Notes under the pieces: generated by a model
Database searches by the model: none
What the model was told of the DNA's origin: nothing
What the model saw: the letters and a program-made list of their open reading frames with translations, nothing else
Shown here: positions 4,733 to 48,665 of the stretch, one piece after another
How positions within the stretch are numbered: the stretch's first letter is position 1
Layout of the letters: the number at the start of each line of letters is the position of its first letter
Virus record (IMG/VR): IMGVR_UViG_3300010367_000012
Span: 48,477-112,476 of that record
Direction: 5' to 3' (one strand)
DNA from: a virus
DNA length: 64,000 bases
Made by a program: the position numbers and the translations under genes

Positions 4733-4803
4733 GCCCGATTAGGTTAATGGGAGACCAGTAGTTTTACACACTACATGCGGGGGTTCGATTCCCTCATCGG
4801 GTA
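4733..4803 (+). tRNA. tRNA-Val(TAC)
   Basis: Acceptor GCCCGAT/ATCGGGT (4733-4739 with 4796-4802). Anticodon stem GTAGT/ACTAC with loop TTTACAC gives TAC. Discriminator A4803. Confidence 0.95.
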
Positions 4804-4804
4804 C

Positions 4805-4894: not shown

Positions 4895-4972
4895 GGGGCT
4901 GGAAGGTTTCGACGTTGGCGAAAGCCGCACGCGGAGCACCAGCGGACCTGGGTTCGATTCCCAGCAGCTCCA
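4895..4972 (+). ncRNA. Minimal tmRNA-like RNA (tRNA-like domain only)
   Basis: Acceptor GGGGCTG (4895-4901) pairs fully with CAGCTCC (4965-4971) and carries the G3-U70 alanine identity pair. It is followed by GGTTTCGAC (4905-4913), the hallmark D-loop of tmRNA. The 3' side has GGA, T stem CTGGG/CCCAG (4948-4952 with 4960-4964) and loop TTCGATT, close to the 3' end of actinobacterial ssrA. Between them CGTTGG (4913-4918) pairs with CCAGCG (4939-4944) in place of helix H2, capped by about 20 nt. The whole RNA is about 78 nt, where normal tmRNA is 350-400. There is no tag frame and no pseudoknots. It lies two bases before tRNA-Cys, so it is probably processed with it. Confidence 0.75.
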
Positions 4973-4974
4973 CT

Positions 4975-5051
4975 GGTGCCGGACCTAGATCACATGGCGT
5001 GGTAGCGCTCTGCAAAAGCGTTGGTTCGGGGTTCGATTCCCCTCGGTACCT
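4975..5051 (+). tRNA. tRNA-Cys(GCA)
   Basis: Acceptor GGTGCCG/CGGTACC (4975-4981 with 5044-5050). Anticodon stem GCGCT/AGCGT with loop CTGCAAA gives GCA at 5012-5014. The D arm is unusual: only a 3-bp ACC/GGT stem with a long loop is evident. The outermost T-stem pair is mismatched. The tRNA is probably functional, but weaker than its neighbours. Confidence 0.75.
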
Positions 5052-5055
5052 CTTT

Positions 5056-5141
5056 GGAAACTTGGCTGAGATGGCTTAAGGTGCTCGACTGCTAATCGAG
5101 TGAAGGTAACACTTCCACGGGTTCGAATCCCGTAGTTTCCG
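5056..5141 (+). tRNA. tRNA-Ser(GCT)
   Basis: Acceptor GGAAACT/AGTTTCC. Anticodon stem CTCGA/TCGAG with loop CTGCTAA gives GCT. A long class II variable arm (GAAGGTAACACTTC) follows. Discriminator G5141, as expected for serine. Confidence 0.95.
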
Positions 5142-5146
5142 CGCAT

Positions 5147-5230
5147 GGAAGGGAAGCAAATGGTTAGCGGCTACGCTGGAAACGTAGTGAGGGTTTACCG
5201 CCCGAGCGGGTTCGATTCCCGTCCCTTCCG
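5147..5230 (+). tRNA. tRNA-Ser(GGA)
   Basis: Acceptor GGAAGGG/CCCTTCC. Anticodon stem CTACG/CGTAG with loop CTGGAAA gives GGA. Class II variable arm with GGGTTTACCGCCC. Discriminator G5230. Confidence 0.94.
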
Positions 5231-7820: not shown

Positions 7821-8177
7821 TTCACTACGAAAGATTCTGGATACAGAGAACAATATTCTACGGGTATGCAGCGGGATACACAGGATGGGAAAGCACGGTT
7901 TGACTTGCTGTTCCCTTTGGATGTACCCTACTCAGACCAGTTCTTCACACGGATTGCTGAATTGATGACCCGTGGTGCTGAGAAGTACTATGAGCGTAAC
8001 TGGGAGAAGGCTATAACTAAGGAAGAAATATCGCGCTTTCGTTCATCGGCTGCACGACATTTCTTTCAATGGATGTCTGGTGATACTGAAGAAGACCATG
8101 CTTCCGCTGTGGTATTTAATCTGCTAGCTTATGAGACCACAGTTTACAAGATAAGCCAACAGGAGGAAGAACAATGA
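7812..8177 (+). CDS. MazZ-like dATP/dGTP diphosphohydrolase (DUF5664)
   Basis: The conserved block runs from TGMQRDTQDGKARFDLL through LMTRGAEKYYERNWEK to SSAARHFFQWMSGDTEEDHASAVVFNLLAYE. This is the pattern of the all-alpha NTP pyrophosphatase family first labelled DUF5664, which includes MazZ. Its acidic residues (E/D in RGAEKY and EEDH) would bind metal. MazZ converts dATP/dGTP to monophosphates and in some phages supports 2-aminoadenine DNA. The start is uncertain: ATG 7812 is chosen, though ATG 7866 would keep the whole domain and a TTG lies upstream at 7788. The stop overlaps the next ATG (ATGA), so it is coupled to RNA ligase. Confidence 0.8.
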   Translation: MTNFTTKDSGYREQYSTGMQRDTQDGKARFDLLFPLDVPYSDQFFTRIAELMTRGAEKYYERNWEKAITKEEISRFRSSAARHFFQWMSGDTEEDHASAVVFNLLAYETTVYKISQQEEEQ

Positions 8178-9211
8178 AGCTGTACGATTTGTTCGGTTAT
8201 CGAGACTATATGCAGATGCTTGACGAAGGGTATGTGCGAGAGAACTTCCACCCTGAGCTTGATCTGCGTATCATCAACTACACGGAGAAGGCACAGTACG
8301 ACAACGAGTGGAACAAGGTAACTGCTAGGTGCCGTGGCCTTATTATCAGTTCTGATGGCACGATCATTGCACGGCCTTTCGATAAGTTCCTGAACTACGG
8401 GCAGAACCAGGCTGACGTACTTCTTATGGATGAGCCTGTAGTAGTAACCGATAAGATGGATGGTTCACTTGGTATCCTGTGGAGTTACAAGGGTCAGCAG
8501 GGTATTGCGACGCGCGGTTCCTTTACGTCGGAGCAGGCTATTCACGCTACTGCGCTCTGGAAGGAGAAGTACAACTTCCAGGTAGCTCCGATGTGGACTT
8601 ATATGTTTGAGATCGTCTATCCTCAGAATCGTATTGTGCTCAACTATGGTGACATGGATGAGCTGGTATTGCTCGGTGTACGAGACATTGAGGAAGGCGA
8701 TGTGTTGCTTCCTAACGAGGTTGTAACGTGGCGTGGTCCTAGGACTCAGACCTTCTCCTACGGGACGCTCAGAGAGGCCCTAGCGGCTCCTCAGCGGCCT
8801 AATGCAGAGGGCTTCGTCGTCTACTTCCCGAACCTTGACTACCGAATCAAGGTGAAGCAGGAGGATTACGTAGCGCTACACAAGATCGTTACAGGCTTGA
8901 CAAAGCGTCGTGTCTGGGAGAACCTTGTTGAAGGTCAGACTCTAGTAGATCTTATAGAGCTTGTTCCTGATGAGTGGCACGCGTGGCTGAAGCGGACATA
9001 CAATGAGCTGATGTTTGAGTTTGCAGGTATCAAGCAGAAGGTGGCCGTTTCCTACCTTGCCGTGGAACAGGATCTCCCTATTGGATTTACTCGTAAAGAG
9101 TTCGCAGAAAGAGTAAAGGATATGCCTTATCGGAGTATGCTGTTCGGTATCCTGGACGGTAAGGACATCAATCCTGCGGTCTGGAAGCTGATTAAACCTA
9201 GCGCAGAGTAA
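8174..9211 (+). CDS. T4 Rnl1-type RNA ligase
   Basis: This is a 345-residue nucleotidyltransferase-fold ligase. Motif I is KMDGS with the adenylated lysine at residue 94. Upstream CRGLIISSDG and ARPFDKFLNYGQ match the segment before motif I in T4 RNA ligase 1. Downstream are ATRGSF (motif Ia/III region), EGFVVYF (motif IV, about 216) and KVKQEDY (motif V, about 228). It seals 5'-phosphate and 3'-OH RNA ends, as when T4 repairs cleaved tRNA anticodon loops. AGGAGG precedes the ATG, which overlaps the stop of the upstream gene. A kinase/phosphatase partner lies at 50640. Confidence 0.9.
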   Translation: MKLYDLFGYRDYMQMLDEGYVRENFHPELDLRIINYTEKAQYDNEWNKVTARCRGLIISSDGTIIARPFDKFLNYGQNQADVLLMDEPVVVTDKMDGSLGILWSYKGQQGIATRGSFTSEQAIHATALWKEKYNFQVAPMWTYMFEIVYPQNRIVLNYGDMDELVLLGVRDIEEGDVLLPNEVVTWRGPRTQTFSYGTLREALAAPQRPNAEGFVVYFPNLDYRIKVKQEDYVALHKIVTGLTKRRVWENLVEGQTLVDLIELVPDEWHAWLKRTYNELMFEFAGIKQKVAVSYLAVEQDLPIGFTRKEFAERVKDMPYRSMLFGILDGKDINPAVWKLIKPSAE

Positions 9212-15546: not shown

Positions 15547-15936
15547 ATGGCCGTACACGGATCTGGTGGAACTCTTGTTGCTTCCACAGCCACTACCACT
15601 ACTTATACAGGATGGGAGAAGTACGTAATCATTACTGCCTCCGCTCCTAGCACCGTTGCTGGAACTCTATCTGTAACTACTGATGGAACAACAGCTACTG
15701 TAAATGGTGCAGACAATGCTTCCGTTAGAATTCCAGCTTCTGGTTCTGTGACTGTTGCCGTGAAGAATAACTTCCCACGTCCAATGATTTCTACCACAAC
15801 TCCACTAGCTACTGACCCATCTGCTGTTCCCGCATACACAGCTTACGGTTCAAAGGTTTCTATCATCTCTGATCTAGCTGCTCCTTACAGCATTGACCTA
15901 GCTGAGGACCCTGGAACTCTGCCAGTTTATAGCTAA
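15547..15936 (+). CDS. Beta-sandwich virion protein (possible decoration), first of three
   Basis: This 129-residue protein is rich in Thr, Ala, Val and Ser with alternating strands (LVASTATTTTYTGWEKYVIITAS, GTLSVTTDGTTATV, SVTVAVKN). The plan of an early W followed by a V-I-I strand, then a TDG turn, then a late SIIS..APYSI strand is shared with the proteins at 16149 and 16497. This indicates a small family of beta-sandwich domains. Located between terminase and portal. A capsid decoration role is likely but not shown. Confidence 0.7.
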   Translation: MAVHGSGGTLVASTATTTTYTGWEKYVIITASAPSTVAGTLSVTTDGTTATVNGADNASVRIPASGSVTVAVKNNFPRPMISTTTPLATDPSAVPAYTAYGSKVSIISDLAAPYSIDLAEDPGTLPVYS

Positions 15937-48351: not shown

Positions 48352-48665
48352 TGGTATTTAAAGGCCGCTGCCAGAGAGATATGACTTGTATTCTCGATAA
48401 CGGCCACCTAGATGAATGTAAATTCACTAAGTGGCCAACGGCAGAAGAACTAAAAAAGCTGAAGCAAGTTGGTGGAGATCACTATGAGAAGATGGCTATC
48501 CAGCCATGGGAAGTGATCGAACGTGGAGACCTTGACTTCTGGGAAGGCAACGTGGTTAAGTACGTCATGCGTTACCGAGCCAAGAATGGTCTAGAGGATC
48601 TTAAGAAGGCTCGACAGCACCTTGACTACTTGATCGAAAGGGAGCAGAAGCATGGCACTAGCTGA
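48351..48665 (+). CDS. DUF3310 (SaV-like) protein
   Basis: This 104-residue protein contains VGGDHYEKMAIQPWEVIERG followed by DFWEGNVVKYVMRYRAKNG and LEDLKKARQHLDYLIE, the diagnostic core of the DUF3310 family found near phage replication and nucleotide metabolism genes; members are helical and their activity is not settled. The N-terminus has an extra CxxD/CxF segment. ATG overlaps the previous stop (TAATGG). Confidence 0.87.
   Translation: MVFKGRCQRDMTCILDNGHLDECKFTKWPTAEELKKLKQVGGDHYEKMAIQPWEVIERGDLDFWEGNVVKYVMRYRAKNGLEDLKKARQHLDYLIEREQKHGTS

Follow-up and report, generated by a model that had tools for sequence, protein, structure and literature searches.

A tmRNA-like RNA reduced to its tRNA-like domain in a phage tRNA array, and its many viral relatives

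Within a phage tRNA array, a 78-nt RNA gene resembles tmRNA from which the message has been removed, which raises the question of whether such an RNA is a viral gene in its own right, and what it might do, or a remnant of a longer one. The gene lies in a window of 64,000 nucleotides, the whole stretch of DNA that was analysed (positions 48,477 to 112,476 of IMG/VR record IMGVR_UViG_3300010367_000012). A preliminary description had recognized a tmRNA-like RNA with the tRNA-like domain (TLD) alone, and an Rfam covariance search bore this out: the tmRNA model RF00023 matched 4895-4975 with 65.5 bits (E 2.7e-23; gathering cut-off, 47 bits), reaching both model ends and skipping about 300 model positions, which hold the pseudoknots and the tag frame. 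Every element that it had listed (acceptor stem, G3-U70, loop, 6-bp helix and T arm) was present where it had been placed, and the helix pairing 4913-4918 with 4939-4944 was exact (Table 1). The acceptor stem comprises 7 bp (4895-4901 with 4965-4971), including G3-U70 (4897 with 4969), and is followed by A73 at 4972, the features by which a tRNA-like domain is recognized. The D-loop analogue GGNTTCGAC (4905-4913) stands in for the D arm, and the P2 helix replaces the anticodon arm. In bacterial tmRNA, the D-loop analogue is the region that binds SmpB. Only 20 nt lie between the two P2 strands, and the features of a full tmRNA, namely pseudoknots and an mRNA-like domain with resume codon, tag frame and stop, are absent.

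Table 1. Positions of the RNA, its structural elements and the neighbouring tRNA genes in the window
Feature	Position	Strand	Evidence or remark
TLD-only tmRNA (mini-tmRNA), 78 nt, 3' CCA not encoded	4895..4972	+	RF00023, 65.5 bits; own covariance model R1, 89.2 bits
Acceptor stem, 5' strand GGGGCTG, including G3	4895..4901	+	7/7 pairs; pairs 4-7 covary among relatives
Acceptor stem, 3' strand CAGCTCC, and discriminator A73	4965..4972	+	U70 = 4969
D-loop analogue GGTTTCGAC	4905..4913	+	agrees with RF00023 consensus GGaUUCGAC
P2 helix, 5' strand	4913..4918	+	double-sided changes in 7/8 P2 pairs of alignment A2
P2 helix, 3' strand	4939..4944	+	double-sided changes in 7/8 P2 pairs of alignment A2
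Cap: AAAG internal loop and hairpin CCG-CACG-CGG, closing P2 where the mRNA-like domain would be	4921..4935	+	
T arm CTGGG-TTCGATT-CCCAG	4948..4964	+	T-stem pairs covary in relatives
tRNA-Val(TAC), upstream neighbour in the tRNA operon	4733..4804	+	ARAGORN, Rfam
Probable tRNA-Cys(GCA), 3 nt downstream of the mini-tmRNA	4976..5051	+	by eye; sub-threshold tRNA-like match 4975-5050
tRNA-Ser(GCT)	5056..5142	+	ARAGORN, Rfam

Several other identities were considered for this RNA. A tRNA-Ala was rejected because D arm and anticodon arm are missing and the best Rfam model is that of tmRNA; ARAGORN, run on the window, called neither a tRNA nor a tmRNA at 4895-4972. A permuted, two-piece tmRNA does not agree with a gene in which the 5' half precedes the 3' half and a hairpin closes P2. 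A two-piece tmRNA with its message elsewhere was also dismissed, as was a complete tmRNA of which this would be a degraded copy, since the whole 112,476-bp virus record contains no RF00023 match above the cut-off except that at 4895-4972. A hidden short tag frame was rejected on the grounds that stop codons in the cap are inconsistent among family sequences. No SmpB gene was found in the record or in nine relatives. Folding, which the preliminary description had also proposed, gave a mixed outcome: the fold supported by covariation is available to the RNA at -28.9 kcal/mol, but the minimum-energy fold of the window RNA alone (-34.3 kcal/mol) differs from it and pairs the D-loop analogue. The gap is 5.4 kcal/mol, or 3.7 kcal/mol with the D-loop analogue kept free, and among the matches listed the minimum-energy fold has P2 with a free loop in just 55 of 174 cluster representatives.

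The virus record is related to the ~113-115-kb Streptomyces phages Alone3, LuckySocke, GiJojo, pSt2308 and BRock. Its mini-tmRNA is situated in a tRNA array with tRNA-Val(TAC) on one side and tRNA-Ser(GCT) on the other, and the same RNA occupies the equivalent place between tRNA-Val and tRNA-Ser in GiJojo, LuckySocke, Alone3 and pSt2308, as well as in BRock, where an extra tRNA-Cys is annotated. At the probable tRNA-Cys(GCA) of the window (4976-5051), neither ARAGORN nor the Rfam tRNA model made a call; further along, a serine-type tRNA with the anticodon GGA, read by eye, lies at 5147-5230 (Rfam tRNA, 37.8 bits; no ARAGORN call). A promoter and terminator scan gave counts close to those in shuffled sequences. 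When the loci were aligned with 100 nt on each side, the RNA was conserved with sharp ends and the flanks were not; between the window and GiJojo, acceptor pair 4-69 has undergone a compensatory swap from G-C to U-A. In LuckySocke (L008), whose mini-tmRNA is nearly identical to that of the window, the flanks are near-identical to those in Alone3 (L007) and the RNA is strongly different, as if the RNA gene alone had been exchanged or the Alone3 copy had decayed rapidly.

Conservation of the stems had been put forward as a check, and all four helices were found to covary. In alignment A2 (34 sequences, <85% identity, four-helix structure), 96.2% of cells were paired, compared with 71.0% in shuffles, and 194 double-sided changes were counted, compared with 54.7; none of 500 shuffles reached the observed pairing or the observed changes, and pairing fell to 35-51% when the partners were slid by 1-3 columns. 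The acceptor and T stems had served as selection filters, whereas P2 had not, and seven of the eight P2 pairs showed double-sided changes. Because the sharp ends are conserved in relatives while the flanks are not, and because the helices covary, the window RNA lies far beyond chance, and we regard it as confirmed, as far as sequence comparison goes, as a TLD-only tmRNA homologue.

The alanine identity of the RNA was kept almost throughout. G3-U70 is the known identity element for alanyl-tRNA synthetase; it was present in 189, and A73 in all, of 190 unique GGNTTCGAC-selected sequences, although the scans required neither. In the enlarged unique set, G3-U70 occurred in 240 of 242 sequences among the matches listed, U70 being in part required by the pattern. 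Acceptor pairs 4, 5 and 6, in contrast, vary freely and take many forms. The alanine identity is thus under selection, and a near-invariant G3-U70 beside pairs that swap suggests that alanine charging itself appears to be selected.

How widespread are such RNAs? Pattern scans of IMG/VR combined with stem checks yielded at least 334 stretches with TLD-only RNAs, representing at least 242 unique sequences and at least 174 clusters at 85% identity. One scan sought GGTTTCGAC followed by a T loop at 28-48 nt (110, 78, 44 and 49 stretches, listed in full), and another, with GGATTCGAC, gave 51 stretches, many of them false. After filtering for acceptor pairing of at least 6/7 and T-stem pairing of at least 4/5, 285 places passed and 58 failed, and the two groups separate well because the failures mostly have 2-5 acceptor pairs. 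A cap-motif scan (CCGCAYGCGG, T loop and TCCA), which ignored the D-loop analogue, gave at least 97 unique matches, and a matching acceptor 5' strand stood at the right distance in 96 of the 97 listed. Isolates with a TLD-only RNA include the Streptomyces phages GiJojo, LuckySocke, pSt2308, BRock and Shaeky, Stenotrophomonas phage Jojan60 and Pontimonas phage phiPsal1; the RNAs of the temperate Shaeky and of Jojan60 and phiPsal1 were blastn matches to which RF00023 aligned full-length within ~80 nt each. None of the isolate loci examined was annotated as tmRNA, and a predicted protein overlaps the mini-tmRNA in GiJojo (gene 44) and in Jojan60; annotation pipelines thus miss these genes.

A narrower pattern, run against 84,980 bacterial and archaeal genomes, produced 20 matches, about half of them real, and seven of nine cellular assemblies examined that carry a mini-tmRNA also carry a full tmRNA and SmpB. 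The small number of cellular matches, one of which is in a prophage-like region, means that the gene is mainly viral. That region, in Cellulosimicrobium cellulans MP1 (G005:C17:105521-157506; L400, L401), is bounded by a tyrosine integrase on one side and the host ssrA on the other, with the mini-tmRNA in its interior. The gene likewise turns up on a 27-kb replicon of Pseudonocardia broussonetiae that is filed as a plasmid (NZ_CP053567.1), where a match at 15549-15628 is 78% identical over the entire mini-tmRNA.

The setting seen in the window is not general. A tRNA lies within 1 kb of only 21 of 98 IMG/VR mini-tmRNAs, so we rejected the idea that the gene is, as a rule, a passenger of tRNA clusters. 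In one broad phage lineage it is located between the genes for the head maturation protease and the major capsid protein, in the same sense (L022, L030, L046, L087, L127, L221 and other IMG/VR loci; phiPsal1, L004 2001-2079), with flanking proteins down to 24% identical between loci. Near the tRNA array of the window, a TROVE (Ro-like) RNA-binding protein is encoded at 58-1365, and such a protein was found in all large Streptomyces phages tested (six to seven). A T4-type RNA ligase (Pfam RNA_lig_T4_1), possibly for tRNA repair, is encoded at 8174-9211 and also in the large Streptomyces relatives. Neither protein was found in Shaeky, Jojan60 or phiPsal1, all of which have intact mini-tmRNAs; the two co-occur with the RNA in the large Streptomyces phages only, and were rejected as required partners.

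Two parts of the RNA vary among members. Where a full tmRNA has its mRNA-like domain, a small second hairpin closes P2, of which a common form is AAAGCCGCAYGCGGA; CCGCAYGCGG was present in 48 of 190 unique GGNTTCGAC-selected sequences and marks the commonest subgroup. Other members, such as the 68-nt L152 and L064, have different caps, and this difference suggests that tmRNAs may have been reduced to the TLD on more than one occasion. The D-loop analogue was a required part of the GGTTTCGAC and GGATTCGAC scans, which are therefore uninformative on its conservation. Among the matches listed from the cap-motif scan, it was intact (GGNTTCGAC) in 52 of 96 unique relatives and altered in 43, for example to GGTATCGAC, GGTGTCGAC or GGTTAGCCC (the script's count of 44 included L113, which differs only by a long linker). 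The loops of Alone3 (GGCACGAC) and of Streptomyces phage Riptide (GGTTAGAT) are both altered, yet G3-U70 and the cap are kept. Riptide has a full-length tmRNA whose tag frame is intact (L213 1507-1766) as well as a mini-tmRNA (L209 2977-3053) ~11.5 kb from it, in which P2 is also intact. On comparison of these sequences, altered loops with a kept cap and G3-U70 are the best argument that SmpB binding is probably not the whole story.

What might such an RNA do in an infected cell? We somewhat favour a role as an alanine-charged RNA that would use host SmpB and compete with host tmRNA without adding a tag. Transcribed with its neighbours, it would be cut from the phage tRNA transcript like a tRNA, receive its 3' CCA from the host and be charged through G3-U70 by the host alanyl-tRNA synthetase. 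Host SmpB and EF-Tu would then bind it; since these phages lack SmpB, the protein would have to be the host's. SmpB and stalled ribosomes would thus be taken away from host tmRNA, no degradation tag would be added because the RNA has neither resume codon nor tag frame, and host trans-translation, including the tagging of phage proteins, would be blunted during infection. According to the passages on it in PMC4131195 and PMC11915505, a TLD-only molecule like that of Mycobacterium phage DS6A strongly inhibits E. coli tmRNA, charged or not, perhaps by SmpB titration. Because inhibition as reported there needed no alanine acceptance, titration alone would leave the strict G3-U70 unexplained, and this strictness argues that the natural RNAs are probably charged and reach the ribosome, which is why a charged competitor is favoured. 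Some findings speak against competition: Riptide, with both a full tmRNA and a mini-tmRNA, fits simple SmpB titration poorly, the SmpB loop is altered in the cap-selected relatives at the frequency given above for the listed matches, and in the unaided minimum-energy fold of the window RNA, the D-loop analogue is base-paired.

The main rival is that the charged RNA, with SmpB, enters the stalled ribosome, takes over the nascent chain and releases the ribosome without adding a tag, which would aid translation when mRNAs are broken in infection, much as mitochondrial tmRNAs without an mRNA domain may do. We think this rather unlikely. The strictly kept G3-U70 and A73 accord with it, in that alanine acceptance matters, and the mitochondrial tmRNAs that lack a tag frame are found together with SmpB and are presumed to assist where mRNAs are incomplete (PMC11915505). 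The many tRNAs and the RNA ligase of the window phage and its large Streptomyces relatives would be expected under RNA cleavage, but Shaeky, Jojan60 and phiPsal1 manage with intact mini-tmRNAs and no ligase. Moreover, with no resume or stop codon, the ribosome could be released only by drop-off and hydrolysis or with the help of another rescue factor, and the inhibition in E. coli described in the relevant passages of PMC4131195 points the other way. We give still less credence to a role outside trans-translation, as an alanyl donor, a sponge for alanyl-tRNA synthetase or a partner of, for example, the phage Ro protein. The persistence of cap and alanine identity where the SmpB loop has changed, as in Riptide, Alone3 and the cap-selected relatives with altered loops, and the TROVE genes of the large Streptomyces phages would suit it, but the majority of the listed cap-selected sequences retain the intact loop, and the three phages just named do without a TROVE protein.

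That the RNA is a full tmRNA in decay, or a copy of the 3' end of host ssrA at an attachment site, is highly improbable; the preliminary description had named both alternatives and set against them that both halves of the domain are kept. Integration often takes place at ssrA, and in some phages, for example Shandong1 and Validus, the match is confined to the 3' part of the query; in Shandong1 it lies next to a tyrosine integrase. The window RNA, in contrast, keeps both ends and lies in a tRNA array, and across hundreds of contigs P2 and the two ends have been retained through compensatory change, with sharp boundaries; in the Cellulosimicrobium region, the mini-tmRNA is at neither site, the integrase being ~23 kb and the intact host ssrA 28 kb away. 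Covariation, sharp ends and breadth led us to reject this origin for the family.

As a kind, TLD-only phage tmRNA is already known: that of DS6A was reported by Mao et al. 2009 (pmid 19617710), as cited in PMC4131195 and PMC11915505, and the window locus is a new member. Like DS6A's, in the wording of PMC4131195, the window RNA is a phage-encoded tmRNA with little beyond the TLD. DS6A, judged by the citing papers' description, is one documented case, whereas the mini-tmRNA family spans many phage lineages with hosts in at least Actinobacteria and Gammaproteobacteria. The preliminary description, correct in seeing a TLD-only homologue and not a relic, had missed this precedent, the hairpin that caps P2 and the size of the family. 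The full-length tmRNAs of Gordonia phage GMA2 and of Streptomyces phages Forrest and Riptide share the acceptor, D-loop analogue, T arm and RF00023 membership, but they have pseudoknots and a length of ~270-410 nt, and those of Forrest and Riptide also have a tag frame, where the mini-tmRNA has a capped P2. The tmRNAs without a tag frame in jakobid and oomycete mitochondria and in Mallomonadaceae plastids differ in being organellar, with an organelle-targeted SmpB, and the mitochondrial genes, unlike the mini-tmRNA, are usually permuted. The 2025 tmRNA database holds nine 'Standard, no CDS' entries among 97,179 sequences (PMC11915505).

In the literature searched, we found no mention of how broad the family is, of the shared cap or of a near-invariant G3-U70. 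A form previously on record for essentially one phage is now seen in more than 300 viral contigs, and this breadth, with the alanine identity kept almost throughout, suggests that manipulation of trans-translation is a common phage strategy. More tentatively, and with slightly more doubt than confidence, we propose that mini-tmRNAs may be a widespread, purpose-built class of viral RNA, with capped P2 and invariant alanine identity, that disables or bypasses host trans-translation as a counter-defence and has been selected for alanine transfer on stalled ribosomes instead of being a reduced relic. Cultured phages with laboratory hosts, such as LuckySocke on Streptomyces lividans, allow direct testing. 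Two further RNAs were noted beside phage tRNAs. In Microbacterium phage Quenya (L012 1939-2027), a longer TLD-only-like RNA with the loop GGTTCGCCGAC (37.4 bits with model R1) lies directly upstream of tRNA-Gln, and in Gordonia phage GMA2 (L011 2342-2398), a Pistol ribozyme (56.8 bits) directly follows tRNA-Trp, downstream of the full tmRNA.
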